Positions 4,585-26,358 of a stretch of DNA of 64,000 nucleotides are shown here, one piece after another. The translations under genes were made by a program, and so were the position numbers. The stretch is taken from positions 248,001 through 312,000 of the forward strand of contig NZ_JACHFM010000002.1 in assembly GCF_014201905.1 (NCBI RefSeq), in the 5' to 3' direction. This DNA is from Amaricoccus macauensis (GTDB lineage Bacteria; Pseudomonadota; Alphaproteobacteria; Rhodobacterales; Rhodobacteraceae). Within the stretch, counting starts at the first letter, position 1. Each line of letters opens with the position of its first letter. The notes beneath the pieces are model-generated. The model was not told the origin of the DNA. It saw nothing but the letters and a program-made list of their open reading frames with translations, and made no database searches.

Positions 4585-4596
4585 AGGCGGTCACCG

Positions 4597-4623: not shown

Positions 4624-4636
4624 GTCCAGTGCGGCC

Positions 4637-6339: not shown

Positions 6340-7291
6340 GGCGCGGCGCCCGCAGCAGAAGCCAGAGGAAAAGCCCCGAGCCCAGCACCCCGAAGACGGT
6401 CCCGACCGGGATCTCGTAAGGATAGCGCGCCAGCCGCCCGACGATGTCGCAGGCGAGGACGAGGGTGGCGCCGGCAAAGGCGACCCACGGCAGCGTCCGC
6501 CGCAGGTTGTCGCCCATCATCCGGCTGACCAGGTTCGGCACGACAAGCCCGACGAAGGGGATCATGCCGACGGTGACGACGACGAGCGCGGTGATGATCG
6601 AGACGATGACGAGGCCGAGTGCGACGACCGTACCATAGCTCAGTCCGAGCCCGAGGCTCGCGTCCTTGCCGAGGCTTGCGATGGTGAAGCGGTCAGCGGC
6701 GGCATAGGCGATGATCGCGGCGGCGCCCGAGAGCCAGAGCAGTTCATAGCGCCCGGCAACCACGCCGGAGAACTCGCCGTTCATCCAGGTCCCCAGGTAT
6801 TGGATCAGGTCGTGCTGGTAGGCGACGAAGGTCTCGCCCGCGCCGAGGACGCCGCCGTAGACGATGCCGACCAGCGGCACGAGCAACGGCTGGGTCGGCG
6901 GCAGGCGGCGAACGATCACGAGAAACACCGCCGTGGTCGCGAGCGCAGTGACGCTCGCCGCACCCATGCGCATGAAAAGCGGCGCTGCGGGTGCGAGCAG
7001 TGTCACGGCGAGGAGGCCGAGGGCCGCGCCCTGAGCCGTGCCCGCGGTCGTTGGCTCGGCGAAGCGATTGCGGGCGATCACCTGCATGATGACGCCTGCC
7101 ACCGCCAGCGAGGCGCCGGTCAGGAGCACCGCCGCGGTGCGTGGCAGGCGGCTCACGAAAAGCAGAAGCTGGGCGCCGGGGTCCGTGAGGACCCCGGCGG
7201 GATCGAAGTCGCCGACCCCGACCTGAACGCTCACGAGGGCGAGCGCGAGGAGCAGGCCGGCCGCAAGGCCCGCCTTCGCCGTCAGCCTCAT
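6329..7291 (-). CDS. Iron chelate ABC permease (FecCD family)
   Basis: 320 aa polytopic membrane protein. The family motifs RLPRTAAVLLTGASLAVAGV, NRFAEPTTAGTAQGAALG and GMIPFVGLVVPNL are conserved in the BtuC/FecCD superfamily. The start codon overlaps the stop of the binding-protein gene (ATGA). It partners the second permease and the FepC-like ATPase. The order SBP, permease, permease, ATPase matches the B. subtilis ycl (petrobactin) and Vibrio vct (vibriobactin/enterobactin) types. Confidence 0.9.
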   Translation of the reverse strand: MRLTAKAGLAAGLLLALALVSVQVGVGDFDPAGVLTDPGAQLLLFVSRLPRTAAVLLTGASLAVAGVIMQVIARNRFAEPTTAGTAQGAALGLLAVTLLAPAAPLFMRMGAASVTALATTAVFLVIVRRLPPTQPLLVPLVGIVYGGVLGAGETFVAYQHDLIQYLGTWMNGEFSGVVAGRYELLWLSGAAAIIAYAAADRFTIASLGKDASLGLGLSYGTVVALGLVIVSIITALVVVTVGMIPFVGLVVPNLVSRMMGDNLRRTLPWVAFAGATLVLACDIVGRLARYPYEIPVGTVFGVLGSGLFLWLLLRAPRHAT

Positions 7292-8172
7292 CCGCCGAAG
7301 GCGTCGGTGATCTGACCGAGGAGCCCGGTGATCGAGCGCACGCCGCCGCCGGCGATGTACATGCTCGACGGGTCGAGGAAGACGAGGTGGTCTTCCTTCC
7401 AGGCCGTCGTCTCATGCACCAGCGGGTTGTCGAGCGTCTGGCGCGCGCTGTCGCCTTCCTGCTGGACCGCCGCCGCGCGATCGACGACGACGAGCCAGTC
7501 CGGGTTTGCCTTCTGGACGAACTCGAACGACACGGCCTCGCCATGGGAGCCTTCGTAGGTGGTGGCCACCGCCGCAGGCAGCCCAAGGTCGGTGTGGATC
7601 CAGCCGAAGCGCGAACCCGGTCCGAACGCGGACATCTTCGGGCCGTTGGTGAGCAGGACGAGGCCGTTGCCCTTGCCTTCGATCGCCGCCTTTGCATCCG
7701 CGACGGCACGGTCCAGCCCTTCCGCGAGCTCCGCCGCTGCGTCGTCCTTGCCGAACAGCGTCCCGTAGGCGGTGAGCCGTGCGCGGGCGTCCCCGATGAG
7801 GGAGTCCCCGCCGATCGTCATGTCGATGGTCGGCGCGATCGCCGAGAGCGCGTCAAACTGCGTCGCTGAACGGCCGCCAATGACGATCAGGTCAGGCTCG
7901 AGCGCCGCCACGGCCTCGAAGTTCGGCTCGAAGAGCGTCCCGACCGTCTCGGCCTTGTCCTTCAGGTGGTCGAAATGCGGAAAGTAGAGAGTGTCGGTCA
8001 CGCCGACCGGAGCGATGCCGAGCGCATCGAGCGTGTCGAGCGCCGCTATATCGAACACCACCACCCGTTCTGGCCGCTCCAGTTCGACTGGTCCACGGGC
8101 GGTTTCGATCGTTTCTGCGAAGGCCGGGGAGGCGAGCAGGGTGAGCAGGGCGAGCAAAGCACGCGAGATCAT
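7288..8172 (-). CDS. Periplasmic iron-siderophore binding protein
   Basis: 294 aa from the ATG at 8172, which has AAGGG upstream and gives a clean signal peptide (MISRALLALLTLLASPAFA). A longer frame to 8223 has no such support. It has the bilobal class III fold pattern with TIETARGPVELERPERVVVFD at the N-terminus and ALEPDLIVIGGRSA in lobe 1, resembling YclQ/CeuE-type catecholate binding proteins. It captures the ferric chelate delivered by the receptor and hands it to the permease pair. First gene of the leftward operon. Confidence 0.9.
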   Translation of the reverse strand: MISRALLALLTLLASPAFAETIETARGPVELERPERVVVFDIAALDTLDALGIAPVGVTDTLYFPHFDHLKDKAETVGTLFEPNFEAVAALEPDLIVIGGRSATQFDALSAIAPTIDMTIGGDSLIGDARARLTAYGTLFGKDDAAAELAEGLDRAVADAKAAIEGKGNGLVLLTNGPKMSAFGPGSRFGWIHTDLGLPAAVATTYEGSHGEAVSFEFVQKANPDWLVVVDRAAAVQQEGDSARQTLDNPLVHETTAWKEDHLVFLDPSSMYIAGGGVRSITGLLGQITDAFGG

Positions 8173-8286
8173 GACAGGGGTCCCTTCTTGGCAATGCTTG
8201 GCTGGGCGGACCTGGCTGTGCATGGAGTGGCTTTAAAGGCGCGGCCCCACGTGTTCAATCGCCGGGGGCAATGGATCCGTCACAAA

Positions 8287-8305
8287 GCCGAGAAATTTTC
8301 TCGGC
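8287..8305. promoter_or_regulatory. Perfect 19-bp palindrome upstream of the iron importer operon
   Basis: GCCGAGAAATTTTCTCGGC has 9-bp arms around one central base and lies 115 bp upstream of the binding-protein start. Length and position suit a repressor operator (Fur-family sites are about 19 bp), but the sequence is not a consensus I recognise. The one-base centre makes a terminator hairpin unlikely. Confidence 0.5.
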
Positions 8306-8415
8306 AATCACCTCTTTTCCTTTCGCCTCGTCTCTAGACCAGCGATCCCGCAGGATGAATCCATCCCCGATCAAATACCGATCTTGCGAGGAGTCGCCTG
8401 TGGAACAGGCTCTTT

Positions 8416-9390
8416 TCAGGCATCGATCGGTCGGATTGTTCGGCGTTTCAACTGGCGGGCGCGGCGCGCGCGCAGCGAGTCGATGAGAACGGCGAGGAAG
8501 ATGATGCCCGCCATCAGGATCGGCTGGAGATAGAGGTTCACGCCGGTGAAGACGAGGCCAGAGCGGACGGTCTGGATCAGCGTGGCGCCGACCACCGCGC
8601 CGAGTGCAGATCCGATGCCGCCGAAGAGGCTCGCGCCCCCGAGGACGGCGGCGGCGATCACGTCGAATTCGCGGCCCTCGCCGAAGCCCGCGTCAAGGCG
8701 GCCGATCTGGGCGATGACGACAAACCCGGCGAGACCGGCGCAGGCGCCGGAGATGACGTAGACCCGCGCGCGGATCCAGTCGACGGGCAGGCCCGCCTTG
8801 CGGGCGGCCTCGGGGTCGTTGCCGACGGCGTAGATCTGCCGGCCGAAGGCGGTGCGGGTGAGCACGACGTGGGCGAGACCCGCGAGGCCCGCGAAGAAGA
8901 CGATGGGCAGGGGCACCGGACCGATGGAGGCGAGGCCGAAGGCCCGCATGTCGGCGTCGAAGTCGAACTGCTGCGAGCCGGTCAGGAACGCGCCGAAGCC
9001 GCGGAAGGCAAAGAGCGTGGCAAGGGTCACGATGAACGGGATGATCCGCAGCCCGACGATCGCGGCCGCATTGATCGCGCCAAGGAACGCGCCGGAGACG
9101 ACCGCGACCACGAGACCACCGCCGACGCCGATCCCGAGGTCGCGCATGGCAAAGCCCGCGATGAGTGGCGCGAGGTAGATCACCGACCCGACGGACAGGT
9201 CGATCCCCGCGGTCAGCAGCACGAAGGTCATGCCGATCGCGGCGATGCCGATGAAAGCCGCCTGCTTCACGATGTTGGCGATGCTCTCGGGCGAGAGAAA
9301 GCCCGGTGCCTGCAGGCCGAACCAGAGGAGCACGAGCGCAAAGACGAGAAACGTCGCGTGGCGGAGCGCGATGTCGGTCAGTCGGGTCAC
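8416..9390 (-). CDS. CUT2 sugar ABC permease (RbsC-like), second permease of the apiose-locus importer
   Basis: 324 aa with about ten membrane helices. The family core GIAAIGMTFVLLTAGIDLSVGS and FDVIAAAVLGGASLFGG is intact. It starts at a GTG preceded by GAGGAGG. It is the last gene of the D-apiose operon and is separated from the ATPase gene by one copy of the 212-bp repeat. The operon also carries a distinct permease at 11116-12288, so the channel may be a heterodimer or there may be two alternative homodimers. Confidence 0.88.
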   Translation of the reverse strand: MTRLTDIALRHATFLVFALVLLWFGLQAPGFLSPESIANIVKQAAFIGIAAIGMTFVLLTAGIDLSVGSVIYLAPLIAGFAMRDLGIGVGGGLVVAVVSGAFLGAINAAAIVGLRIIPFIVTLATLFAFRGFGAFLTGSQQFDFDADMRAFGLASIGPVPLPIVFFAGLAGLAHVVLTRTAFGRQIYAVGNDPEAARKAGLPVDWIRARVYVISGACAGLAGFVVIAQIGRLDAGFGEGREFDVIAAAVLGGASLFGGIGSALGAVVGATLIQTVRSGLVFTGVNLYLQPILMAGIIFLAVLIDSLRARRARQLKRRTIRPIDA

Positions 9391-9409
9391 CGTCGGGCCT
9401 CCTCTCTGG

Positions 9410-9621
9410 TGCCGGTCTCGGGGGGCATCGAGCCCCCGCTCGACCGGGGCGGCGTGCCGCCGCCGGCGCCTCGGTTCCGGGCGGTGCGCGGGGGGCGGGT
9501 GCGGGACGCGGGCGTTGCCGCGAAGTTGTGCGCGCAGGTGCGCGCAGGGTTTCCTTGCCGGTTTTCCGCCCGTTGGCGGAAAACGACTGCTCTCCAGGTT
9601 TCAAGGCCGTATGAAAGCCCG
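9410..9621. repeat. Intergenic repeat element, copy 1
   Basis: About 212 bp, clearly homologous to 15501-15714 along its whole length. It fills nearly the entire gap between the ATPase stop (9623) and the Shine-Dalgarno region of the next gene. It contains a hairpin with 10-bp arms (9561-9570 and 9575-9584, loop CGTT), a G5/C5 stem near 9421-9440 and a GC-rich middle. On the minus strand it can be read as a short frame beginning MKPGEQSF in both copies, but the frame is not otherwise conserved. It may be a REP/MITE-like element or an operon-internal RNA structure. Confidence 0.85.
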
Positions 9622-9622
9622 T

Positions 9623-11119
9623 TCACGTCACCGCCTCGCGGAAGGCGCTGGCGAGGATTTGCTCGCGGTTGAAGGGGGGCGTGAACGCTCTGACCAGTTC
9701 GCCCCGGCTCATGACGAGGATCCGGTCGCACATGCCGATCAGTTCTTCGACTTCGGAGGAGATGAAGAGGATGCCGCTGCCGGCGGCGGCAAGGCGGTCG
9801 ATGAGCGTGTAGATCTCGTACTTCGCACCCACATCGACGCCCCGGGTGGGCTCGTCGAGGATGAAGAAGCGCGGGTCGGCCATCAGCCACTTGCCGATGA
9901 CCACCTTCTGCTGGTTGCCCCCCGACAGCGCCTTGACCGGCTGGGTCGCGATGCGGCCGGCGCGCACGCCGAGTTCGGCACGGGCGCGTTCGGTCGCCAC
10001 GGCGTGCGCCTCGCGGTCGAGAAGCGCGAGCGGGCCGCGGCCGAACGCGCGGACGGCGACGAGGCTGAGGTTGTCGGCCACGGGGGCTTCCAGCATCAGG
10101 CCCTCCTCGCGGCGGTTCTCGGTCACGAAGGCCATGCCCGCCGCGATGCGCGCGGCGGTCGGGCCGGTGAGCGGGCGGTCGGCGAGGGCGAGGGTGCCGG
10201 ATGCGAGCGGGTCGAGGCCGAAGGCCGCTCGGGCGAGTTCGCTCCGTCCCGAGCCCATCAGCCCGAAGAGCCCGAGGATCTCGCCGGCATGCGCTTCGAA
10301 GGAGATGGTCTCGATCACCCCGGGCTGACCGAGGCCCTCGGCGCGGAAGATGACGGTGGGCGAGGGCGTGGCGGAGCGGTCGGGGAAGAGGCCGGAGAGT
10401 TCGCGGCCGATCATCGCGCGGATCATGCGCGGGACGGGAAAGTCGGCGACCGGCCCGTGGTCGATGAGCCGGCCGTCGCGCAGCACCGCCACCTGGTCGC
10501 AGACCCGGGTGACATCGCCGAGGATGTGGCTGATGTAGATGAGCGTGCGGCCCTCGGCGCGGAGCCGGGCGATGACGTCGAAGAGCCGTGCCGTTTCGCG
10601 CGGGGTGAGCGAGGTTGTCGGCTCATCGAAGATGATGAGGTCCGCCTCCCGGTGCAGGGCCTTGGCGATTTCGACGAGCTGGCGTTCGCCGGGGGCGAGT
10701 TCGCCGACGATGGTGTCGGGCGCGTGGTCGAGGTCGAGCCGCTGGAGCAGGGACCGGGCCGTCGCGGCGATACGGGCGCGGTCGATCAGGCCGAAGCGCC
10801 GGGGGAAGCCGTCGATGAAGATGTTCTCGGCGATCGAGAGGTTGGTGAAGAGGTTGAGTTCCTGATGGATGAAGGCGATGCCGCGGCGCGCGGCGTCGGC
10901 GGGCGTGGCGGGGGCGTAGGGCTCGCCCTGCCACGTCATGCGGCCGGAGGAGGGCGCGACGACGCCTCCGACCATGTTCATGAGCGTCGACTTGCCCGCG
11001 CCGTTCTCGCCGATCAGGCCGAGGGACGACCCTGGCTCGATCCCGAGGGTGAAGTCGGTGACGGCCGGCACGCCGAACCAGTCCTTCGAGAGACCGTCGA
11101 AGGCGAGGAGTGCTGTCAT
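9623..11119 (-). CDS. CUT2 sugar ABC importer ATPase (RbsA-like, two ABC domains)
   Basis: 498 aa from the ATG at 11119; the open frame extends far upstream through the permease gene and is ignored there. Domain 1 has Walker A GENGAGKST, signature LAPGERQLVEIAKAL and DEPTTSL. Domain 2 has signature LSGGNQQKVVIGKWL and DEPTRGVDVGAKYEIY, with the usual degenerate Walker A of the RbsA C-terminal domain. The start overlaps the permease stop by 4 bp. It powers import by the system encoded at 8416-13294, probably for D-apiose or its lactone by context. Confidence 0.92.
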   Translation of the reverse strand: MTALLAFDGLSKDWFGVPAVTDFTLGIEPGSSLGLIGENGAGKSTLMNMVGGVVAPSSGRMTWQGEPYAPATPADAARRGIAFIHQELNLFTNLSIAENIFIDGFPRRFGLIDRARIAATARSLLQRLDLDHAPDTIVGELAPGERQLVEIAKALHREADLIIFDEPTTSLTPRETARLFDVIARLRAEGRTLIYISHILGDVTRVCDQVAVLRDGRLIDHGPVADFPVPRMIRAMIGRELSGLFPDRSATPSPTVIFRAEGLGQPGVIETISFEAHAGEILGLFGLMGSGRSELARAAFGLDPLASGTLALADRPLTGPTAARIAAGMAFVTENRREEGLMLEAPVADNLSLVAVRAFGRGPLALLDREAHAVATERARAELGVRAGRIATQPVKALSGGNQQKVVIGKWLMADPRFFILDEPTRGVDVGAKYEIYTLIDRLAAAGSGILFISSEVEELIGMCDRILVMSRGELVRAFTPPFNREQILASAFREAVT

Positions 11120-12288
11120 GTGGCGCTCCGCATCAGCCGGGTGCGCACGACGTCGAGGAGTGCTGCCATCAGGATGACGCCGCCCTTCACCATGTCGATG
11201 TGGAAGGCCGAGAGATTCAGCAGGTTCAGGGTGTTCGAGAGCAGGACGAAGAAGAGGACGCCGAAGAAGGTCCAGATCACCTTGCCCTTGCCGCCGAAGA
11301 GCGAGGTGCCGCCGATCACCGTGGCGCCGATGACGTCGAGGAGGAAGTTGCCGCCGCCGAGCGTCGGGCGGCCGGTCTCGAGCCGCGCGGTGTAGAGGAT
11401 CGAGGCGATGGCGGCGCAGACGGCGGAGATCACGAAGACGGTGACGATGACGCGCGCGACCGGGACGCCGGAGATTTCGGCCGCCTTGCGGTTGATGCCG
11501 ACAGCGAAGACCCAGCGGCCGAAGACCGTGCGGTTGAGCAGGATGTGGGCGAAGACGGCGGCGGCGAGCGCGATCACCATCGGCCAGGTGATGAAGGAAT
11601 AGACCTCGCGGCGCGGGAGCTGCGACTCGAGCTTCGGGCCGAGGTAGACCGAGACGATGTCGCCCTTGCCGAGGCTGATGAAGCTCTCGGGCAGCTCGCG
11701 GATGTTGTTCGACTGGGTGAGCCAGATGGCGAAGGCGGCGACCGCGATCATGGTGACGAGCGTGACCATGAAGGGCGGCATCGAAAGCCGTGCGACTGCG
11801 AGGCCGTTGAAGAGCCCGACGAGGGCGGCGACCGCGAGCATGGCGGCGATACCGACTGCGGAGGCGAACGGGATGCCCGCGAGGAGGCCGCCCTGCTCGG
11901 TCAGGAGCGAGCCCCAGATCGGGGCGTTGGCAAGCACCGTTGCCGGGGCGGCGGTGGCGATCAGCATGGCGACGACGACGCTCGTCAGGCCCATGACGGC
12001 GCCCTGGCTGAGATCGATCCCGGCGATTGTCAGCACGAAGGTCTGCCCGACCGCGACGACGAGCAGCGGCCACATGTTCGACATGAGGTTGACGATGTTG
12101 CCGGGCGTCGAGAGCGTCGGAAGGAACGGCACCAGAGCCAGAAAATAGGCGAGCGAGAGGTAGAGGACGAAATAGTCCGAGAGCAGCAGCGCGCGGACGC
12201 GCTGGCCGAGGTCGGCTCCCGCCGGGCGGGCGGCGGGGGCGCGGATGTCCGGCCGGGGTGTGATCCCGGCCGGGGGAAGCTCGCTCAT
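11116..12288 (-). CDS. CUT2 sugar ABC permease (first permease of the apiose-locus importer)
   Basis: 390 aa, longer than the sister permease because of a polar N-terminal extension (about 30 residues) and a periplasmic insert (LPESFISLGKGDIVS...). The core motifs VGQTFVLTIAGIDLSQGAVMG and FLLDVIGATVIGGTSLFGGKG are canonical. It starts directly after the binding-protein gene and overlaps the ATPase start, so the three are tightly coupled. Confidence 0.9.
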   Translation of the reverse strand: MSELPPAGITPRPDIRAPAARPAGADLGQRVRALLLSDYFVLYLSLAYFLALVPFLPTLSTPGNIVNLMSNMWPLLVVAVGQTFVLTIAGIDLSQGAVMGLTSVVVAMLIATAAPATVLANAPIWGSLLTEQGGLLAGIPFASAVGIAAMLAVAALVGLFNGLAVARLSMPPFMVTLVTMIAVAAFAIWLTQSNNIRELPESFISLGKGDIVSVYLGPKLESQLPRREVYSFITWPMVIALAAAVFAHILLNRTVFGRWVFAVGINRKAAEISGVPVARVIVTVFVISAVCAAIASILYTARLETGRPTLGGGNFLLDVIGATVIGGTSLFGGKGKVIWTFFGVLFFVLLSNTLNLLNLSAFHIDMVKGGVILMAALLDVVRTRLMRSAT

Positions 12289-12289
12289 C

Positions 12290-13294
12290 TCAGGACTTGT
12301 TCTTGAGGAAGCCCTGGGAGAGCAGCACGCAGCCCCACATGTCCTTCTCGCGGGTGCCGAGGTTGTCGGTGGTGAGCGCGAAGCCCGGATCCTCGATCAC
12401 CTCGTTCGGTTGGGCCTCGCCGGCGTCGATCGCCGCGAGGATCGCCTCGAGCGACTTCTCGGCCTCGAAGTAGAGATCCTGAACGCCCGTCGCATCGACA
12501 AAGCCGTCCTTGACGAGCTGGCAGGCGGTGGCGTCGCCGTCGAGGCCGGCCATCCAGACGTGGCCCTCCTCGCCGGTCTTCTTCCAGAGGCCGCGCGGTT
12601 CGAAGACCGAGCGGATGGTCGGGAAGAGGAAGTCCGACGAGGTGAAGAGCAGGTCCACCTTCGGGTTCGCCGTCACCGCGGCCTCGAGGTTTGCGAGCGC
12701 GGTGGCCGCGTCCCACTGCGAGGCGACCTCGGTCACGTCGAAGCGGTCGGCGTGCTTGTTGATCGCCGCATAGAAGCCGTTCTTGCGGCCGACGGCGTTC
12801 GGGTCGCCGAGATCGCCCACCACGATGATGGCGTTGAGTTTGCCCTCGGGCTTCGCGGCGATCGCCTTCTCGACGATGGAGTCGACCGCCTGTCCCGCGA
12901 TCGTCGCATTGTCGGCGACGACGACGATGCCCTTGGAAAGATCGCTCGGCGGACGGTTGAAGACGGCGATCGGGGTGTCGGCGTCCTGCGCTTCCGCGAC
13001 GATCGTCGTGGCGCTCTCGCCGTCCTGCGGGATCAGGATGATGCCGTCGACGCCCTGCGCGATGCAGTCGCGAACCTGTTCGAGCTGGCGGTTGGCATCC
13101 TCGTTGGCGTTGCGCTCGATGACGGTGTGTCCGGCGTCTTTCAGGGTTTTCGTGATGGCGCCATGGCCCGCCACCCAGAACTCGGTCTCGAGGTCCTGAA
13201 ACGCGAAGCAGATGGTGGCGGCCGAAGCGGAGCCGGCGGTCATCGCGGCGCCGGCAAGGATGGTGCCGGCGGCGAGGGCCTGCAGTCGGGTCAT
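12290..13294 (-). CDS. Periplasmic sugar-binding protein of CUT2 importer (Peripla_BP_4)
   Basis: 334 aa from the ATG at 13294, which yields a signal peptide MTRLQALAAGTILAGAAMTAGSASA cleaved near residue 25. A 13498 start would add an implausible basic stretch. RbsB-fold landmarks: CIAQGVDGIILIPQD and VWMAGLDGDATACQLVKDG. It follows apnO by 31 bp, so transporter and catabolic genes are one transcription unit. The ligand is inferred from context to be D-apiose or an apiose derivative. Confidence 0.88.
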   Translation of the reverse strand: MTRLQALAAGTILAGAAMTAGSASAATICFAFQDLETEFWVAGHGAITKTLKDAGHTVIERNANEDANRQLEQVRDCIAQGVDGIILIPQDGESATTIVAEAQDADTPIAVFNRPPSDLSKGIVVVADNATIAGQAVDSIVEKAIAAKPEGKLNAIIVVGDLGDPNAVGRKNGFYAAINKHADRFDVTEVASQWDAATALANLEAAVTANPKVDLLFTSSDFLFPTIRSVFEPRGLWKKTGEEGHVWMAGLDGDATACQLVKDGFVDATGVQDLYFEAEKSLEAILAAIDAGEAQPNEVIEDPGFALTTDNLGTREKDMWGCVLLSQGFLKNKS

Positions 13295-13325
13295 GGCGGG
13301 TCTCCCTTGCTGGGTGTGTTGGCCT

Positions 13326-14177
13326 TCAGGCAGTTTGGTCGGGGTGGCAGATATCCTTGACGGACTTAAGGACGCTCTCGGGCGCGAAGACACGTTCGAG
13401 CCAGTCCTCCCGGAAGATGAGCGGGCGGGCCTGGGCGATGGCATGGAGTGCGCCATCGGAGAATTTTCCCTCGGGGAAGAGGCCGAAGGCGATGGCAAGC
13501 TCGATGTTGAGGTGGCCGAGAAGGAAGTCGTGGGCCGCCTGTTCGGGAACGCCGCGGCGGACGGCCTCGTCGGCCGCCTCGCGGAGGGCGAGTGCCATGG
13601 TGGCGCCGACGGTCTCGGAGAGCGCGGGTTCGAGGATCGCGATCTGCTCGACGGTGCAGCGGTGGGCGCGCATGACCGGTGCGTAGATCGCGCGCGCGAC
13701 CTCTTCGCAGAGGGCGTAGTGCTCTTCCGGGCCCTGCATCAGCGCGCAGACGATGTGCTGCTTCGCGCGGATCCCGCCGAAGTGGTCGGCCTTCGCCTCC
13801 GGATCGGTCTCGTCGTTGAAGAGCGGCGGGTGGCAGGGGTGCGTGACGAAGTAGGTGACGTCCGCGCGCTCCGGCATCTCGCCGGCATGGGGCGCGGCGG
13901 CGTCGAGGACGATGACGGCGGTGCCGGGATCGAGCTTCGGGACGATCTTGTGGGCAACCTCGCCGATCGCCCGGTCGGGGACGGCGAGAAGGACGACGTC
14001 GGCGCGGGAGATCGCCTGACCTTCCTCCATGCAGTCGAGGCCGGTGGCGGCCTTGAGGCGTGCGCGGCCGGCTTCGGCGACTTCGACCGGGGCGATGTCG
14101 AAGCGTCCCTTCTGCAGGTTGGTGGCGAGGCGGACGCCCATCTTTCCGCCGGCGCCAAGCAGCGCGATCCTCGTCAT
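13326..14177 (-). CDS. apnO: D-apionate oxidoisomerase (ApnO)
   Basis: 283 aa. The N-terminal Rossmann motif IALLGAGGKMGVRLATNL is followed by a 6-phosphogluconate-dehydrogenase-like C-terminal domain (FVTHPCHPPLFNDE, then the helical part). This architecture is that of ApnO, which oxidises and isomerises D-apionate to 3-oxo-isoapionate with NAD+. The assignment rests on the family together with adjacent oiaK, RuBisCO-like, apsD and apnL genes. A strong GAGGAGG site precedes the ATG, which overlaps the oiaK stop by 4 bp. Confidence 0.85.
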   Translation of the reverse strand: MTRIALLGAGGKMGVRLATNLQKGRFDIAPVEVAEAGRARLKAATGLDCMEEGQAISRADVVLLAVPDRAIGEVAHKIVPKLDPGTAVIVLDAAAPHAGEMPERADVTYFVTHPCHPPLFNDETDPEAKADHFGGIRAKQHIVCALMQGPEEHYALCEEVARAIYAPVMRAHRCTVEQIAILEPALSETVGATMALALREAADEAVRRGVPEQAAHDFLLGHLNIELAIAFGLFPEGKFSDGALHAIAQARPLIFREDWLERVFAPESVLKSVKDICHPDQTA

Positions 14178-15481
14178 GCATTCCTCCTCATGCGGCCGGC
14201 CGCTCCGGCCGTCGGTGGCAGTCCGTCCCTGACGTGAACGAAGAAGTCGGTCGGTCCCATCTGGCCACCTTTCATCACCAGCTCGATGCCTGGTCCCTCC
14301 GCGCGGTGGCCGCGCAGGAGGGGCGCCCCGGGGGCGATCGGGGTCTCGGCGGTGAGGGCGGTGAGCCCGAGGGCGCGCGCGGCGGCGCTCGACGTGTCGC
14401 CGCCGGCGATGACGCTGCGGGTGATGCCGGTCTCGCGGATCAGCCGGTCGAGCAGCCGGCCGAGGCCGGCGCCGAGGCCGGGGTCGGCGCCCGTGTCGTT
14501 CTGGCCGCGCGAGGTGGCGACGAGGGGCGAGCGGCCGTCCGCGAGGGCTGTGAGGGCGGCGCGGGTCGCGGCGTCCCAGTCGGGTTCGCCCGGGCAGAGG
14601 TCGATGACCGCGAAGCCTGCCGCCTCGGCCGCGTCGATCTGCGCGGCGGTGGTGGGCGAGCAGGAGCCCGAGACGACGGCGATGCGCCCGGTCGGGGCAA
14701 GCCGCTCGGGCGTTGGTGCCGGGGGGAGGAGGCCGGCCCGGCGCCATGCGGCGACGAGGGCATACTCGACGCCCTGCGAGCCGAGGACGAAGCCTTGCGC
14801 CTGCCAGAGGATGTCCCCGGCGGCGGCAAGGGTTTCCGCATCGACGACGTCGATGGCGAGGATGCCGCCGGTCCGCTGTGCTTCCGTCAGGCGGTGGAGG
14901 CCACGGCCGGACTTCAGGTCGTTGAGGTCCGCGAGCGCGAGGGGAAGCGAGGTCTGGCGGGCGATGTGGCGTAGGACATCGGCCTCGTCCATCGCCGTGA
15001 CCGGGTGGACCGACATGGTGGGATGGCGGTCGAGGCGGTGGATGCCGCCGTCGCCGGCACGGGCAAAGAGCGTGCCGAACGCCTGCCAGCGACCGATCTC
15101 CGGCGCGGCGACGACGAGGGGTGCGAGAGCGCCGGGGGCGAGCGCGACCTCGGCCGCGGTGCCGATCGATCCGATCCCGGGCGCGCTGTCGAGGGTGGAG
15201 CAGAGCTTGTAGTGCAGGATCGGTGCGCCGAGCGCGCGGAGGCTTGCGCAGATCGCCGGGAGTTCAGTGCGCATCCGGTCGGGGGACCAGGTGCGGGCGT
15301 CCCCCGCGAGGCCGATGGCACGCGCTTCGGGAAAGCGGGCGAGGTCGGCGGGAGTGGGCGGGGCGAGGAAGAGCACGGTTGGCAGTCCGGCGAAGCTCAG
15401 GACCTCCAGGACCGCGCCGGAACCGGTGAAGTCGTCGCCGTAGAAGGCGAGGACGGGCGTCGCGGTTGGCAGCGGGGTCAC
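14174..15481 (-). CDS. oiaK: 3-oxo-isoapionate kinase (OiaK, four-carbon acid sugar kinase/DUF1537 family)
   Basis: 435 aa. The N-terminal substrate-binding domain has FYGDDFTGSGAVLE; the C-terminal nucleotide-binding domain has VVSGSCSPTTAAQI and VIAGGDTSSAAARALG. DUF1537 kinases phosphorylate four- and five-carbon acid sugars. Next to ApnO and a RuBisCO-like protein the expected reaction is ATP-dependent formation of 3-oxo-isoapionate 4-phosphate. It starts at a GTG with GGAGG upstream and is separated from the RuBisCO-like gene by repeat copy 2. Confidence 0.85.
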   Translation of the reverse strand: MTPLPTATPVLAFYGDDFTGSGAVLEVLSFAGLPTVLFLAPPTPADLARFPEARAIGLAGDARTWSPDRMRTELPAICASLRALGAPILHYKLCSTLDSAPGIGSIGTAAEVALAPGALAPLVVAAPEIGRWQAFGTLFARAGDGGIHRLDRHPTMSVHPVTAMDEADVLRHIARQTSLPLALADLNDLKSGRGLHRLTEAQRTGGILAIDVVDAETLAAAGDILWQAQGFVLGSQGVEYALVAAWRRAGLLPPAPTPERLAPTGRIAVVSGSCSPTTAAQIDAAEAAGFAVIDLCPGEPDWDAATRAALTALADGRSPLVATSRGQNDTGADPGLGAGLGRLLDRLIRETGITRSVIAGGDTSSAAARALGLTALTAETPIAPGAPLLRGHRAEGPGIELVMKGGQMGPTDFFVHVRDGLPPTAGAAGRMRRNA

Positions 15482-15500
15482 GTTCCCGCCTCCGGCCGGA

Positions 15501-15714
15501 TGCCGGTCTCGGGGGGCATCGAGCCCCCGCTCGACCGGGGCGGCGTGCCGCCGCCGGTGCCCTCGTTCGTTGCGGTGCGCGAGAGGCGAGTGCGGGACGC
15601 GGGCATTGCCGCGAAGCTGTGCGCGCTGGTGCGCGCGAGGTCTGCTTTGCTGGTTTTTCCGCCCGTTGGCGGAAAAACGACTGCTCTCCAGGTTTCAAGG
15701 CCGTATGAAGCCCG
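15501..15714. repeat. Intergenic repeat element, copy 2
   Basis: About 214 bp, homologous to 9410-9621. It lies between the stop of the RuBisCO-like gene (15723) and oiaK. The hairpin here has 11-bp arms (15653-15663 and 15668-15678) around the same CGTT loop. Relative to copy 1 both arms gained one A/T pair, so pairing is preserved while the sequence changed. Its left boundary lies 19 nt from the downstream GTG start, exactly as in copy 1. Confidence 0.85.
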
Positions 15715-15722
15715 ACGAGCCC

Positions 15723-16967
15723 TCATGCGAATTTTCCGAGTGCGGCGGCGAGTTCGGGCGAGCGGGCGGCACGCTCCGCGGCGGTCTCGCCGGCGAGGGC
15801 GGCGTCCCATGCGTCGCGGAGCGCGGTGACGCCCGCTGCCGGTCCCCCGGGGTGCGCCATGATGCCGCCTCCGGCGGCGTGGATGAGGTCGGGGGAGCCG
15901 AGGGCGGCACAGGTGTCCCAGACCTGGGCCGCGGTCTGGCCGGAGGAGAAGACCGGCATCACCGTGCAGGGTTTCGAGGCGAACATCGGCTCGAGCATCG
16001 AGCGGGCCGAGCGGATGACGCTGTCGTCGGGCTCGCAGAACTTGTTCCTGAGGCCGTTGACGTGCATGTGGTCCGCCCCCGCCAGGCGCCAGAGCTTTGC
16101 CCAGGCGACATAGTCGAAGCCGAGGGACGGGCAGCGGGTGAGTGCGCCCCAGCCGTTGCGGTGGGCGTGGATCGGCAGCTCGGAGTGCCGGGCGAGGGCG
16201 AGGAAGCCCGAGAGGCCGACGCCGGTCAGGTTCGCCATCACGCAGGTGCCGCCGAGCGCGAGCACGAGGTCGTGGTTGCGCCGCATCTCGTCGATCTCGC
16301 CGGTGACGTTGAAGGCGAACATCAGCTTCCGGCCGGTGCGATCGGCGGCGCGGTCGATCTCGCGCATGACGGCACGGGCGCGCGCGTCGAAGGGGCAGGA
16401 GGGGCCGTTGCCCTGAAGCTCATCGTCCTTGACGAAGTCGAGCCCGGCGCGGGCGAGCTCGCCGACGAGGGTGGCGGTCGCTTCCGGGTCGAGGCCGACC
16501 GAGGGCTTGACGATGGTGCCGATCAGCGGCCGACCCTCGACTCCGGCGAGGCGGCGGGTGCCGGGAACTCCGAACTTCGGGCCGGGGTTTGCGGCGGCGA
16601 ATGCCTCGGGGAGGCGCAGGTCGAGCAGGCGCAGGCCGGAAAACTGCTTCAGCTCGAAGAGGTTGCCCGCGACGGCCGCGACGAGGTTCGGCAGGGACGG
16701 GCCGATGTTGTCGAGGGGCCAGGAGAGTGTCACGCGGGCCTGGTGGTGGGGCGCGTCGGGCCGGCCAGCGCCGGGCAGCGACGGGCCGGGGACCGGCCCG
16801 AGGTCCTCGATGGCGGTGACGCGGGCGGCGGAGCGCTCCTTGAGCTCGGGGGTTTCGCCGGGGATCGGGACGAAGGTGCCGGAGGACTGCTCGCCTGCCA
16901 TCGCCCCGGCGGCTTCGGCGAGCGGCCAGGCGGTCTCGATCCAGTAGTCGGCTTCGATGCGGCTCAT
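15723..16967 (-). CDS. RuBisCO-like protein of the D-apiose pathway (3-oxo-isoapionate-4-phosphate decarboxylase OiaX or transcarboxylase/hydrolase OiaT)
   Basis: 414 aa from the ATG at 16967, which overlaps the apsD stop (ATGA); an in-frame GTG three codons upstream is possible. Large-subunit motifs are visible: GTIVKPSVGLD (Lys about 154) and DFVKDDELQGN, whose Lys (about 180) is the residue carbamylated in true RuBisCO, with the metal-binding Asp/Glu. Other form I/II residues diverge and no small subunit exists, so this is an RLP rather than a CO2-fixing enzyme. OiaX would release CO2 and L-erythrulose 1-phosphate; OiaT would give 3-phosphoglycerate and glycolate. Sequence reading alone does not decide between them. 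Confidence 0.85.
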   Translation of the reverse strand: MSRIEADYWIETAWPLAEAAGAMAGEQSSGTFVPIPGETPELKERSAARVTAIEDLGPVPGPSLPGAGRPDAPHHQARVTLSWPLDNIGPSLPNLVAAVAGNLFELKQFSGLRLLDLRLPEAFAAANPGPKFGVPGTRRLAGVEGRPLIGTIVKPSVGLDPEATATLVGELARAGLDFVKDDELQGNGPSCPFDARARAVMREIDRAADRTGRKLMFAFNVTGEIDEMRRNHDLVLALGGTCVMANLTGVGLSGFLALARHSELPIHAHRNGWGALTRCPSLGFDYVAWAKLWRLAGADHMHVNGLRNKFCEPDDSVIRSARSMLEPMFASKPCTVMPVFSSGQTAAQVWDTCAALGSPDLIHAAGGGIMAHPGGPAAGVTALRDAWDAALAGETAAERAARSPELAAALGKFA

Positions 16968-18007
16968 CTCGGGCACCCCGCAGCGATGAAGCCGGCGAGA
17001 TCGACGGTCTCGCGCCGGGCAGCGGAGCGATAGCAGGCGAGCGTGATCGCGAGCGTCTCGAGGTTGTGGCGTCCGGAGGGTTGCGGCTCGGCGCGGCCGT
17101 CGAGCACATCGACAACGTGGGCCTCGAAGGCGGCGACGGAGTCCTGCACGAAGTGCCAGGGCCGCGTGCCCCAGGCTGGCACGGGCGGGTCGCCGTCGAT
17201 CTCGCGGACGCCGTCCCGCGTGTGGACGCGGATGCGGCAGCCGACGCCGACCTCGATCGTGCCCTCCGGGCCGTCGATGCGGGCGATGGTCTCGGGGAAG
17301 GGGTCGGGGGTCGTCTTCGCGAAGAAGCTGCAGTCGATGCCGGAGACGCCGCCGTCCGTATGGCCGAGGAGCGCGGTGAAGGCGTCCTCGCCCCGGATGC
17401 GCGGATTGAGCCGCTGGGTGTGGCAGGCGACGCTTGCGACGTCGCCCATGAGGAAGCGGGCGAGATCGAAGAGGTGCAGGCCCATGTCCATCAGGCCGAA
17501 GTCCTCGACCTCGGCGAGATAGGGTTGGTTGGCATAGACGTCGAAGCCGTGGCGGAAGGAAAGCCGGGCGAAGCTCGGCCTGCCGATCGCACCCGCTTCG
17601 ATCTCGGCGCGCACAAGGCGGAAGGCGTGCTGCCAGCGGAAGTTCTCGTGCACGAGGAGGGGGCGGCCGGCGCGATCCGCCGCTTCGACCATGGCGAGGG
17701 CGTCGGGCCAGCTGGCGGCGAAGGGCTTCTGGCAGATCGTGAGCGCGCCACTGGCAAGGGCCAGTTCGACCAGCGGCCGGTGGGTTTCGACGGTGGTCGC
17801 GACATCAACGAAATCCGGGCGGATGGCGGTGAGCATCTCCTGAGCATCGGTGAACGGCGTGGCGCCGAAGTCGCGGGCGAAGGTTTCGGCCCTGCCGCGA
17901 TCGATGTCGCAGACCGCAACGATGTCGGCGCCTTCCGCGTCCTGCCAGCCGTGCATGTGGTTGCGGGCGAAGAACCCGCAGCCGATGAGGGCACCGCGCC
18001 AGGTCAT
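16964..18007 (-). CDS. apsD: D-apiose dehydrogenase (ApsD, Gfo/Idh/MocA family)
   Basis: 347 aa. N-terminal Rossmann fold with GALIGCGFFARNHMHGW and the family motif CQKPFA (the EKP-equivalent lysine). The C-terminal half has HENFRWQHAFR and DMGLHLFDLARF. In apiose loci this protein oxidises D-apiofuranose to D-apionolactone with NAD+. It is coupled by 4-bp overlaps to apnL upstream and to the RuBisCO-like gene downstream. General Gfo/Idh members act on many sugars; the specific call depends on the complete surrounding pathway. Confidence 0.82.
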   Translation of the reverse strand: MTWRGALIGCGFFARNHMHGWQDAEGADIVAVCDIDRGRAETFARDFGATPFTDAQEMLTAIRPDFVDVATTVETHRPLVELALASGALTICQKPFAASWPDALAMVEAADRAGRPLLVHENFRWQHAFRLVRAEIEAGAIGRPSFARLSFRHGFDVYANQPYLAEVEDFGLMDMGLHLFDLARFLMGDVASVACHTQRLNPRIRGEDAFTALLGHTDGGVSGIDCSFFAKTTPDPFPETIARIDGPEGTIEVGVGCRIRVHTRDGVREIDGDPPVPAWGTRPWHFVQDSVAAFEAHVVDVLDGRAEPQPSGRHNLETLAITLACYRSAARRETVDLAGFIAAGCPR

Positions 18008-19698
18008 GCGGGATCTCCGAAGATGGCGAGGTCCATGGGGGCGAGGTCGTGGCCGGCGACCGAGGCCGGTGCGTCGCCGAGGTTGGCAGCGATCGTCCGG
18101 CCCGGCGCTGTGAGGACGATGAGGCCACCGGGGGCGCCCTCGATGCGCACGCGTTTCCCCGAGAGTGCGGCAAGCGCGGCGACGGCATCGCGGATCGGCC
18201 ACGCGGCGTCGCTGCTGCCGAGGGCGATCGGGCCGGAGGTCATGGCCGGGGCGAGGCTCGCGACCCCGGCGCGGGCGGCTTCGGCGACGGCACCGATCGT
18301 CCATGCGGCGGCGAAGCGGGTTCGTTGGCGCGGGTCGTCGCTCGCCATGGGAAGCCTCAGATGGTCGGGGTTCTCGGCGACGGCGCTGCCGTAGGGGTTG
18401 GAGCGCATGGCGATGGCGACGAGGCCGAGGTGCAGCGGCCGGTCGCGGGCAAGCGCCTCGGCGCTGGCGAAGACGGCGGCTAGGGCTTCGAGGCTCTCGC
18501 GGACCGCGCGGTCGTCGGCGGCGTGGACGATGGCCGTGGTGCCGAAGCTCGCGAAGTCGATCGCGGCCGGGTCGGGCGGGCAGCGGTTGAACTCGGTGAA
18601 GTTCGTGAGGGCGCCGCCGCCGATCCCGGCGCCGGGGAAGGCGGCGCGCGCCGCCGAGATGAAGTCCGCCGGGGTCGGGGTGGGCCACGGGCCTTCCGGC
18701 TGATGGCTGGCGAGATAGCTGCGGGGCAGCGCGATGACGCGGCGCGGGCGAAGGCCTTCGGCGGCGCAGCGCGAGGCAAGGGACGTGATCTGCCCAGCGT
18801 GGTCGGCGACGATCTCGAGCGTGACCGGCGCGTCGATCGGCCGGGAAAGCTCAGGTGCGGCGGCATCGACGCGGAGGAGGAGCCCCGAGACACCGAGGCT
18901 CGCGAGATCCACCGGCCCGGGATGGTCGGCGAGCGCCGCATCGTGGGCGAGGAGGATCGCCGGGATGCGGGCTTCGGTTGCCATGCTGACACTGGCAGGC
19001 GGTCGGTCCGCCGCGCCTGAGACATCGATGCGCAGGCACTGGCGCACGATGTCACCGGCGGCGAGCGTGTACGGACGTGGGCGGGCGAGCGGGCGGCAGT
19101 AGGTCTTGAACGAGGCGTCGGTCCAGTTGCGCTGGTCCTCCATCTCGAAGGTCTCCCCCTCCATGGTGATCGTGACGTCCACGCCCGCGACGCAGTGACG
19201 CAGGCCCGCGATGTCGAAGACCGGCTGGCCGGGGGAGATCAGGTCGGGGAAGCGGGTCGTCTCCATGCTGCCGTCGCTGTGGCGGACGGTGAGCGCCGTG
19301 CCGGCAACGCCTGCGATCGGATGGAGGAGGACGAAGCCGGCGCGGTTGACCCTCACGTCCCGGCGGGCGGTGAGCGTGAGCTCGGCCGTGAGCTTGGCCG
19401 TGAGCCCGGCGGTGGAGGCGACGACGGAGAGGCGGCCGTCGATCGTGCCGTCCACGGTCTGGAAGCGGCGGTCGAGGCGCAGGGTGTTGCCGGTGCGATG
19501 GCGCTCGGACGTGGTCTCGATGACCGGGACGGTGCGCCAGTCGGCGTCGCGGATCGGGCAGCCGATCTGGCGGATGACCTCGACGCCGTCGAACGAGAGG
19601 CGGAGCGCCCCGTCGCTCAGGTCGAGGGTGCAGCGGCCGAGGCGCTCGATTGCGGCCGGGGCGGGGTCGCGGGGCAGGGGCTCGGCGGCTGGTGGCAT
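18004..19698 (-). CDS. apnL: D-apionate lactonase (ApnL)
   Basis: 564 aa from the ATG at 19698, which has AAGAGGGA about 6 nt upstream; the longer frame to 19845 would cross the promoter and the GntR gene end. It has no familiar hydrolase motif, which fits the distinct ApnL family: a beta-rich N-terminal region (GALRLSFDGVEVIRQIGCPI) followed by a TIM-barrel-like region (GAGIGGGALTNFTEFNRCPPD). It would hydrolyse D-apionolactone to D-apionate. First gene of the operon, 61 bp after the GntR gene. Confidence 0.78.
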   Translation of the reverse strand: MPPAAEPLPRDPAPAAIERLGRCTLDLSDGALRLSFDGVEVIRQIGCPIRDADWRTVPVIETTSERHRTGNTLRLDRRFQTVDGTIDGRLSVVASTAGLTAKLTAELTLTARRDVRVNRAGFVLLHPIAGVAGTALTVRHSDGSMETTRFPDLISPGQPVFDIAGLRHCVAGVDVTITMEGETFEMEDQRNWTDASFKTYCRPLARPRPYTLAAGDIVRQCLRIDVSGAADRPPASVSMATEARIPAILLAHDAALADHPGPVDLASLGVSGLLLRVDAAAPELSRPIDAPVTLEIVADHAGQITSLASRCAAEGLRPRRVIALPRSYLASHQPEGPWPTPTPADFISAARAAFPGAGIGGGALTNFTEFNRCPPDPAAIDFASFGTTAIVHAADDRAVRESLEALAAVFASAEALARDRPLHLGLVAIAMRSNPYGSAVAENPDHLRLPMASDDPRQRTRFAAAWTIGAVAEAARAGVASLAPAMTSGPIALGSSDAAWPIRDAVAALAALSGKRVRIEGAPGGLIVLTAPGRTIAANLGDAPASVAGHDLAPMDLAIFGDPA

Positions 19699-19720
19699 CT
19701 CATCCCTCTTGGGACGACTC

Positions 19721-19732
19721 ATTATACCAGTT
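19721..19732 (-). promoter_or_regulatory. apnL promoter with shared ATYATACCAGTT motif
   Basis: On the minus strand the region reads CTGGTATAATGAG, an extended -10 (TGG plus TATAAT at 19726-19721) placed 22 bp before the apnL ATG. The 12-bp word ATTATACCAGTT recurs with one change (ATCATACCAGTT, 20476-20487) in front of the GntR gene. The shared word may be the operator of that GntR protein overlapping both -10 boxes, so that repression would block both promoters. Confidence 0.55.
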
Positions 19733-19759
19733 TGGCGATCCGCACAACGATGCGGGCGG

Positions 19760-20458
19760 TCAGCCGCGCGGCAGATGCGACTGGCGGTAGAGGTCATTGG
19801 CGCGCAGCAGGTGGTCGGCCATGGCCGTGGCGGCGGCTTCGGCATCGCGGCTGGCGATGGCGTCGAGGATCTGATGGTGCTCCGCGAGCGTCAGCGCCTC
19901 GAGGCCGGGCACCGAGACGAGATCGACGTGGAAATCCGCGAGCCAGAGGAAAAGCGCGTCGATCAGCGCGGTGAAGATCGGATTGCCGGCGATCGACGCG
20001 ATCTCGCGGTGGAACCGGCCATCGAGACTGCGGAAACGGGCGGGCTCGCTGATGGCGTCCGCCTGGTCGTCGAGAAGCTCGCGAAGTCTCCCCAGATCGG
20101 CGGAACTGTGCTTGCGGGCGGCGATGCGTGCCATTTCGCGCTCCAGCGCCGCGCGGGCCTCCTTGAGATTCTCGAGGCTGGCGGGGGAATTCGCGAGCAG
20201 GTGCTTCATGGTGGCGCTCACCTGATCGACCATACGCCCGATTGATGGCTCGGCGACACGGGCGCGGCCGCCGTGGCGGATCTCGATGAGGCCGATGGTC
20301 TCGAGCGATTGCATTGCCTCGCGGATCGCCGGCCGGCCGACGCCGAAACGCTCCATCAGCTCGCGCTCGGAGGGCAGCAGCTCTCCGGGGCCGAGCGTGC
20401 CGTTGTCGATCACCTCGAGCAGCTCGTGGCGGATCTTGTCCGAAAGCTTCTGGCGCAC
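19760..20458 (-). CDS. GntR-family (FadR subfamily, FCD domain) regulator of the apiose operon
   Basis: 232 aa. The winged HTH LLPSERELMERFGVGRPAIREAMQ lies at about residues 27-50, followed by a C-terminal all-helical FCD ligand domain with the histidines expected to bind a metal (GRFHREI, AEHHQIL, MADHL). The start is a GTG with GGGAG upstream; no ATG is in frame nearby. It sits directly upstream of apnL in the same direction and shares a promoter word with it. Probably a repressor relieved by an apiose-pathway acid such as apionate. Confidence 0.88.
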   Translation of the reverse strand: MRQKLSDKIRHELLEVIDNGTLGPGELLPSERELMERFGVGRPAIREAMQSLETIGLIEIRHGGRARVAEPSIGRMVDQVSATMKHLLANSPASLENLKEARAALEREMARIAARKHSSADLGRLRELLDDQADAISEPARFRSLDGRFHREIASIAGNPIFTALIDALFLWLADFHVDLVSVPGLEALTLAEHHQILDAIASRDAEAAATAMADHLLRANDLYRQSHLPRG

Positions 20459-20475
20459 GCGGTGGCTCCCATGAG

Positions 20476-20487
20476 ATCATACCAGTT
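20476..20487 (-). promoter_or_regulatory. gntR promoter carrying the second ATYATACCAGTT motif
   Basis: On the minus strand AACTGGTATGATCTC includes an extended -10-like TGG-TATGAT about 18 bp before the GTG start, implying a very short leader. Eleven of 12 bases match the site at 19721-19732. No convincing -35 is seen. Confidence 0.45.
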
Positions 20488-20742
20488 CTGACAGAATCCG
20501 GGCATCTGGTGCAAGGCGCGAGCGGGGTGGCGGGCGTTTGCCGGGTCATTGATCAGGCGGGGGAAACCTTGAGATCGTGCCGACGAGCCGTCGCCCGCAC
20601 GGAATTGGTTGAAACCTGCCGCCCTTGTCGGCCAACACTGAGGGAGCGTCCCGGTCGGCGAACGCGCGCTCCGACCCCGATCGACCACCGATCCCGGGTC
20701 CCGGCACGGCCGGCACCGGGACAAGCAGGAGGAAGCAGGACC

Positions 20743-21510
20743 GTGGCAGGGCGTCTCGAAGGCAAGGTGGCGGTGGTGACCGGTGCGGCCAACGGCTGCG
20801 GCTTCGCGGCCGCCCGGCTTTTCGCCCGGGAAGGGGCGAGCGTCGGCATGGTGGATTTGCCGGACTCCCGGGGCGAGGCGGCGGCAGCGGAGCTTGCGGC
20901 GGAGGGCTACCGGGTCGTCTTTGCGCCCGCGGATGTCTCGGCGGCGGCGGCGGTCGAGGCGGCGGTCGCCACGGTCTCGGAGGCTTTCGGGCCGATCACC
21001 GTGCTCTTCAATCACGCAGGCGTGCTGGCGGCGGGTCCGTTCCTCGAGGTCGGGGAAGCCGAGTGGGACCGGGTGATGGCGATCAACGTCAAGGGCATGT
21101 TCCTGATGACCCGCGCGGTGCTGCCGGGAATGCTCGCGGTCGGTGGCGGCAGCATTGTATGCACCTCGTCGATCTCGGGTGTGGTCGCGACGCCGATGGA
21201 GGTGCTCTACTGCACCAGCAAGGGCGCCTGCCACATGTTCGCGCGCGCCATCGCCGTCGAGTTCCGCGATCGCGGCATCCGCAGCAACGCGGTCTGTCCG
21301 GGCTTCATCGCAACGAACCACGGCAAGCGCGAGATCGAGGTCCTGTCACGCTACGGCGTCGATGTCTCGCAGGCGGCGATCGAGGCGGCGCAGGGGCGGC
21401 TCTGCCTGCCCGAGGAGGTCGCGGCGGCGGCACTCTTCCTCGCCAGCGATGAGGCGAGCTTCGTCAACGGCGCGCATCTGTTCGCCGACAACGGCTTTAC
21501 CGCGATCTGA
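20743..21510 (+). CDS. SDR-family sugar/polyol dehydrogenase
   Basis: 255 aa from a GTG preceded by AGGAGG at 20728-20733. Cofactor motif VVTGAANGCGFAAA (the usual TGxxxGxG), NHAG-type strand motif FNHAGVLAAG, catalytic Ser in CTSSISG and YCTSK, and the C-terminal VNGAHLFADNGFTAI. Classical SDR, probably NAD(P)-dependent. It is followed after 20 bp by an aldonolactone oxidase gene, so it is likely a sugar or sugar-acid dehydrogenase. The substrate is unknown. Confidence 0.85.
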   Translation: MAGRLEGKVAVVTGAANGCGFAAARLFAREGASVGMVDLPDSRGEAAAAELAAEGYRVVFAPADVSAAAAVEAAVATVSEAFGPITVLFNHAGVLAAGPFLEVGEAEWDRVMAINVKGMFLMTRAVLPGMLAVGGGSIVCTSSISGVVATPMEVLYCTSKGACHMFARAIAVEFRDRGIRSNAVCPGFIATNHGKREIEVLSRYGVDVSQAAIEAAQGRLCLPEEVAAAALFLASDEASFVNGAHLFADNGFTAI

Positions 21511-21530
21511 ACCGGGCAAGGGAGACGACG

Positions 21531-22802: not shown

Positions 22803-22807
22803 TTCCG

Positions 22808-23767: not shown

Positions 23768-23770
23768 CGT

Positions 23771-26283: not shown

Positions 26284-26314
26284 TCTGGATGGTCCTTCGC
26301 GGGGAGGATGCCAT

Positions 26315-26339: not shown

Positions 26340-26358
26340 GCCGTCTTCGCGACCGCGA

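Follow-up and report, generated by a model that had tools for sequence, protein, structure and literature searches.

Which sugar do the genes of this locus serve, and by which route is it broken down? The locus lies in a stretch of 64,000 nucleotides from Amaricoccus macauensis (contig NZ_JACHFM010000002.1, positions 248,001 to 312,000), called the window below, and consists of ten minus-strand genes that run from position 20458 down to 8416. The genes were identified from their translations, lists of open reading frames (ORFs) and family scans, and the same genes were obtained with a codon-usage ORF caller. A first-pass annotation was confirmed by the scans in its genes, their order and strand, and its outer coordinates. 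We conclude that the locus is probably an operon for the uptake and oxidation of D-apiose, with an OiaT-type step catalysed by a RuBisCO-like protein (RLP) and with NanR-type control. Its sequence gives good support for membership in the oxidative D-apiose pathway, in a form that combines an OiaT-like RLP with an alternative importer. This type of pathway is already known, and a structured repeat in two of the gene junctions is the newer and less expected part. The gene set, its relationships, a promoter motif and the repeat copies can be read in the DNA itself, and from these we infer the substrates, the products and the regulation.

The enzyme names and products of this pathway reportedly come from the Carter 2018 study. 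D-apiose would be taken up by a CUT2 ABC importer with two permeases and converted to apionolactone by ApsD. ApnL would open the ring of the apionolactone to give D-apionate, which ApnO would oxidise and rearrange to 3-oxo-isoapionate. After phosphorylation by OiaK, the resulting 3-oxo-isoapionate-4-phosphate would be split hydrolytically by the RLP into 3-phosphoglycerate and glycolate, as expected for an OiaT-type enzyme, and not be decarboxylated as by OiaX.

The enzymes were compared with family models, solved structures and their counterparts in other clusters. For the Gfo/Idh/MocA-type dehydrogenase encoded at 16964-18007, the best solved structures were those of the 5UHW group (E 8.6e-103, 347.8 bits over 336 residues), and the next match had 101.5 bits. 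We take the 5UHW group to be apiose dehydrogenase by its identity and ligand, and the close relation to it identifies the window protein as ApsD-like. Its gene is 46-57% identical to the counterparts in 8 other clusters. The gene at 13326-14177 encodes an ApnO-like D-apionate oxidoisomerase with a PGDH_C domain (PF16896, 220.6 bits); it stands beside the ApsD, ApnL and OiaK types in a conserved cluster and has 48-73% identity to genes of its type in 9 other loci.

The best NCBIfam models were OiaK for the kinase, OiaX for the RLP and ApnL for the lactonase. The OiaK-like 3-oxo-isoapionate kinase (14174-15481; PF07005 and PF17042) scored 402.8 bits with NF042436, which has a cut-off of 700. Since the R. 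leguminosarum kinase that adjoins an OiaX above its own cut-off (785 bits) also misses this cut-off with 484 bits, the OiaK cut-off looks narrower than the pathway. The ApnL-like D-apionolactonase (18004-19722, with a start that may be at 19698) is 35-45% identical to its counterparts in 8 other clusters and scored 363.8 bits with NF049900, below the cut-off of 750. When 295 genomes of the family were searched in six frames with the ApnL model, 20 gave a match and none reached the cut-off; this search scores genes in pieces, and the window's own gene appeared there with 190 and 171 bits. Because the ApnL and OiaK scores lie below their cut-offs, these genes are named "-like" and their function was rested on the conserved gene set.

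The gene set, whole or partial, recurs around relatives of the RLP in 16 further clusters, making 17 with the window. This recurrence places the gene set far beyond chance, and D-apiose oxidation is therefore well supported. A NanR-type regulator accompanies the five enzyme types in Shinella, Rhizobium Q54, Microvirga, Rhodobacteraceae SC52, Roseibium, R. leguminosarum, Paracoccus, P. sprentiae and Phyllobacterium, as well as on a plasmid of S. meliloti LMB1. Of the loci from six further genomes, L137, L138 and L183 also contained all five enzyme types. A GntR match was absent from the stretches read of L137, L138, L184 and L185. Identities were computed across the clusters; for Rhizobium Q54 the binding protein alone was compared. 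Within the genus the distribution is patchy: three of the 11 genomes carry RLPs with 100, 69 and 64% identity, and a fourth has one with 43%. A Rhodobacteraceae isolate with a similar cluster grows on D-apiose (PMC11747546).

The clusters differ in their layout. That of R. leguminosarum WSM1325 (L058) resembles the window in its NanR-type regulator, ApnO, ApsD, ApnL, kinase, RLP and CUT2 importer, but its RLP is OiaX (785 bits) and its importer is of the single-permease DUF2291 type. P. sprentiae (L062) shares OiaK, ApnL, ApnO and ApsD, and its RLP belongs to the clade of the window RLP, whereas its importer is of the DUF2291 type, its genes stand in two groups and the promoter motif was not found. 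Shinella sumterensis (L050), Rhizobium sp. Q54 (L051) and the same-genus genome G683 (L137) have the enzyme types and the two-permease importer of the window. In Shinella and Q54 the gene order is another one, whereas G683 keeps the order of the enzyme and importer genes without a GntR match in the stretch read. A plasmid of S. meliloti LMB1 carries at L182 (6766-19614) an unannotated whole apiose set with a two-permease importer and two ApnO-type genes.

To place the RLP (15723-16967; PF00016, 220 bits), its score, phylogeny and residues were analysed. With the OiaX model NF042437 it reached 435.1 bits against a cut-off of 700, whereas the R. leguminosarum control reached 785.4. Among the matches listed from plasmid proteins (the best 40 rows plus 60 spread rows, out of 366 records), it was up to 70% identical to relatives that are not labelled OiaX and 41-47% identical to rows with this label. 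In a midpoint-rooted tree of 23 rows, in which one very long row is the genome's own RuBisCO, the window RLP fell into a clade of 12 rows (support 96/93) together with the P. sprentiae RLP, and the three labelled OiaX rows formed a separate clade with a support of 100/100. The Paraburkholderia-type D-apiose cluster of P. sprentiae is, we presume, of the OiaT type. There, OiaK (822 bits, cut-off 700) and ApnL (770, cut-off 750) pass their models, and the RLP misses that of OiaX (444, cut-off 700).

The residues point in the same direction. The window RLP retains K175, K201, D203, E204, H294, R295 and K334 of RuBisCO, and in addition N123, H327 and S379 (the numbers presumably following RuBisCO numbering). 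The last three are replaced in the three OiaX rows, which have GG for GN, DQFQ for DHMH and no matching serine; the window RLP has AGNLF and DHMH and so departs from the OiaX pattern. The protein does not fit a functional RuBisCO, as it has KPS in place of KPK with its second Lys and NKFCE in place of the loop-6 GKLEG. Elsewhere in the genome (G000:C1:1135547-1136470) there is a separate RuBisCO large subunit gene with the usual catalytic motifs and 449.5 bits to PF00016. Use of the OiaX product needs the RpiB/LacAB family, of which no match was found in the genome, other isomerases not having been searched for. Since the OiaX cut-off is missed, the clade is separate, the RuBisCO residues are kept, the P. 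sprentiae pattern is the same and an RpiB match is lacking, the OiaT-like transcarboxylase/hydrolase branch is the better reading of the RLP, and probably the right one. The first-pass annotation was correct in calling the protein RuBisCO-like and had left its reaction open; we now place it in the OiaT-like branch and not with OiaX. A. radiobacter K84 and X. autotrophicus have RLPs to which a review ascribes decarboxylation and transcarboxylation/hydrolysis of 3-oxo-isoapionate-4-phosphate (PMC6302742); OiaT is named there for the Xanthobacter autotrophicus enzyme. The three residues offer a candidate signature that separates two RLP branches of one pathway and is open to direct assay, and the OiaX label does not suit the clade of the window RLP.

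Relatives of the RLP also occur in other surroundings. On plasmids of R. etli (L054, 9989-19755) and A. tumefaciens (L055, 9986-19559), RLPs of the same clade stand with a kinase, a short-chain dehydrogenase/reductase (SDR), an ABC importer and a cyclase-family protein; ApnO, ApsD and ApnL are absent from both loci. In P. marcusii (L063, 5540-12459) and A. brasilense (L066, 5195-12567) the RLP accompanies a LacI regulator, a TRAP transporter, a VOC protein and a kinase, and these RLPs group in the tree with PDB 3NWR as a further RLP type. On a haloarchaeal plasmid (L057, 9995-15019), an RLP and a kinase stand with an ApnO-type gene and a GntP permease, a set that would suit the use of D-apionate rather than D-apiose.

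The importer of the operon comprises a CUT2 sugar-binding protein with a signal peptide (12290-13294; PF13407), permease A (11116-12288; PF02653), an ATPase with two ABC domains (9623-11119; PF00005 in two stretches) and permease B as the last gene of the operon (8416-9390; PF02653). Permease A, the ATPase and permease B are 65, 64 and 64% identical, respectively, to the Shinella proteins. In Shinella, Rhizobium Q54 and G683 the counterparts of the binding protein have 70-78% identity to it, and in S. meliloti LMB1 the counterpart has 42%; all the relatives found at 42-78% identity sit in apiose clusters. Of 274 plasmid matches, 30 were listed; among these, four had more than 40% identity (two from strain Q54), each with an adjoining RLP, and the other 26 had 24-30%. 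With the DUF2291-type receptors from six of the other apiose clusters, the binding protein shares only 21-25% identity. It is thus non-orthologous to them, and there is no DUF2291 gene among the ten of the operon. The two-permease importer is found in 6 of the 17 clusters (the window, L050, L051, L137, L182 and L184, where the binding protein either lay beyond the part read or gave no match), the DUF2291 type in seven (L052, L056, L058, L060, L062, L065 and L183), and neither type in the stretch read of the remaining four (L053, L138, L139 and L185), L139 having a different CUT2 importer with an ATPase of 37% identity.

Among solved structures, the best match to the binding protein had 67.6 bits and 5IBQ, which we take to be an apiose-bound structure, had 52.2 bits. 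As no solved structure is close, the ligand of the binding protein is uncharacterised, and the first-pass annotation was fair in its caution on this point. D-apiose is the likely ligand and the protein the probable D-apiose receptor, judging from its neighbours. As a second CUT2 receptor for D-apiose, not orthologous to the DUF2291 type, it is a clear candidate and is open to direct assay. Apiogalacturonan had been named as a source of the sugar, and nothing was found that points to it: a search of the genome for the apiosidase family PF13204 gave no match, which leaves other apiose-releasing enzymes possible.

The first gene of the operon encodes the NanR-type GntR regulator (19760-20458), which scored 276.8 bits with NF003011 (cut-off 260) and shares 40-50% identity with its NanR-type counterparts in 8 other apiose clusters. 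The motif YTGGTATRA is found upstream of its gene (20477-20485) and again at the start of the ApnL gene (19722-19730). It is present in 13 of the 17 apiose clusters, compared with one of 7 clusters whose surroundings are of the LysR, LacI or archaeal kind, where the sole match sits inside a LysR gene. In first-order Markov sampling, 0.00-0.25 motifs were expected per locus for 20 loci, L182-L185 being outside this control. The motif is the likely NanR operator, and the regulator would probably act as a repressor through the two sites before its own gene and apnL. Since YTGGTATRA resembles an extended -10 box, we can only infer that it is an operator. Taken together, the sequence comparisons, the conserved neighbourhood and the common promoter motif support both the assignment to oxidative D-apiose use and the dedicated apiose importer that had been proposed at first.

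Several observations weigh against this reading. The kinase, RLP and lactonase scores are all far under their equivalog cut-offs, and within the stretches read three of the 17 clusters lack part of the set: an ApnL match is missing from L139 and L184, and both an ApnL and an ApsD match from L185. The RLP clade includes proteins of R. etli, A. tumefaciens and A. oryzae, in whose clusters ApnO, ApsD and ApnL are absent. The OiaT branch is assigned by exclusion, by the tree and by the neighbourhood, and the motif is missing from four of the apiose clusters (L062, L139, L182 and L185). The low scores could mean that the substrate is not D-apiose but a related branched or four-carbon acid sugar handled by the same chemistry, the more so as related RLP-kinase pairs elsewhere accompany different dehydrogenases and transporters. 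We consider this improbable: the ApnL, ApsD and ApnO types are all in the operon, the kinase has 403 bits to OiaK against 145 to 3-oxo-tetronate kinase, and the conserved partner genes are the D-apiose set.

It is also unlikely, if slightly less so, that the operon is the same but the RLP is a divergent OiaX decarboxylase yielding erythrulose phosphate and CO2. OiaX is the top-scoring NCBIfam model with 435 bits, R. leguminosarum has it in an operon of this kind, and in the Rhodobacteraceae isolate LCG007, which grows on D-apiose, the cluster is annotated with the decarboxylase, EC 4.1.1.121 (PMC11747546). However, the cut-off is missed by 265 bits, the clade is a separate one, N123, H327 and S379 are absent from the three OiaX rows, and an RpiB-family match is lacking in the genome, with the limit on other isomerases given above. 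For the motif, there is a real but minor chance that it is merely an extended -10 promoter box and no NanR operator. The extended -10 promoter form is TGNTATAAT, and TGGTATAAT fits it. The conservation often extends into ATGAG, however, several sites read TATGAT, and the motif separates the apiose clusters from those with LysR, LacI or archaeal surroundings. A D-apiose operon with an OiaT-like RLP and a NanR operator is the reading we prefer.

The junctions of the D-apiose operon were then read. Adjacent genes overlap by 4 nt at four of the nine junctions (ApnL/ApsD, ApsD/RLP, OiaK/ApnO and permease/ATPase), so that the first description of almost every junction as an ATGA overlap was wrong. 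Gaps of 37 nt (GntR/ApnL), 31 nt (ApnO/binding protein) and 1 nt (binding protein/permease) were also found. The two long junctions, RLP/OiaK with 241 nt and ATPase/second permease with 232 nt, each contain a copy of one repeat family. Copy 2 lies at 15482-15722 (model core 15595-15709) and copy 1 at 9391-9622 (model core 9504-9615), both in sense orientation and flanked by the stop codon of one gene and the start codon of the next. In G683, the RLP stop and the kinase start share an ATGA, the ATPase gene likewise ends within the permease start, and neither junction has a repeat. The repeat is likewise absent from both junctions in Shinella and from RLP/kinase in G680. Because these junctions are free of repeats, both operon copies are best read as insertions in the lineage of the window. 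One seamlessly coupled operon, as first described, was therefore not borne out: the 232- and 241-bp repeat copies interrupt it, and the same-genus G683 operon has no such gaps.

BLAST of the 9391-9622 copy against its own genome gave 17 matches, 14 of them over the core, and a covariance model was built from these 14 core copies. The model found the element in all 11 genomes of the genus, with 62 matches at E <= 0.001. In 60 other genera of the family there was no match at the DNA level, and the model gave one marginal match of 25.9 bits under stricter filters. An exact scan of genome contigs for the 5' motif of the repeat returned two stretches, from an uncultured Amaricoccus and an uncultured Rhodobacteraceae, consistent with two genus genomes. 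In an alignment of 51 of the 62 copies, fitted to the structure, 97.0% of the base-pair cells are kept and double changes occur at 21 of 28 pairs (5 of 28 in the unfitted 14-row alignment); none of 500 shuffles was as high, and in a sliding control the pairing fell to 56.5% or less. Folding of the 232-nt copy gave a z of -2.66, with one of 200 shuffles equally stable.

Relative to their neighbour genes, 19 of the 51 copies are in convergent gaps, 17 are sense, 13 antisense, 2 one-sided and none divergent, against a baseline of 12 divergent among 55 gaps of at least 40 nt in the window and five genus loci. No copy lies inside a called gene, and in three the end of a called ORF overlaps the core by 18-40 nt. 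An Rfam search of 8000-21000 with E up to 1 found nothing at the repeats. Its sole match, RF00312, was rejected, as it has 29.1 bits against a gathering score of 50 and lies on the other strand within the ApnL gene. The Y1 (RAYT-type) transposase PF01797 was found in none of the 11 genus genomes, compared with 5 of 14 control genomes, and the element does not fit a RAYT-mobilised REP element. Target-site duplications were looked for by eye and none is claimed. In a limited literature search, which is weak evidence of absence, we found no earlier report of the repeat.

REP/ERIC-like elements are dispersed intergenic repeats. The window element resembles them in being dispersed, palindromic and placed between genes next to gene 3' ends, but differs in its conserved core of about 113 nt, its 5 helices and the lack of Y1 transposase and Rfam matches. 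It behaves like a dispersed element of the REP/ERIC type, with a possible role at the transcript level. A leader or riboswitch role was ruled out, because the orientation to the neighbouring genes is mixed. That the two operon copies are functional cis elements, which split the transcript by processing, stabilisation or partial termination and so set gene ratios, is conceivable but rather doubtful. Their sense direction and stop-to-start position would fit such a role, as would the covariation and the stable fold described above, whereas the orientation over the 51 copies is mixed as for a dispersed REP-like element, and the G683 operon has no repeats at either junction. The wider proposal of a genus-specific structured RNA family that acts in transcripts, and that would turn two coupled junctions into processing or stabilisation points tuning the RLP:kinase and ATPase:second permease ratios, is more doubtful still. 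As a dispersed REP/ERIC-type element, the repeat represents a compact, strongly covarying family without an Rfam match, of which the two window copies can be compared with repeat-free junctions in a same-genus relative.

Two further groups of genes adjoin the operon. The sugar cluster at 20743-30765 contains an SDR, an enzyme of the D-arabinono-1,4-lactone oxidase family, another SDR, a LacI regulator, a Gfo/Idh dehydrogenase and a second CUT2 importer (22808-27486), and is outside the apiose set. On the other side, at 2500-8223, a receptor-like outer membrane protein, recognised by eye, and an ABC importer whose binding protein is of the Peripla_BP_2 family are perhaps for iron-siderophore uptake.

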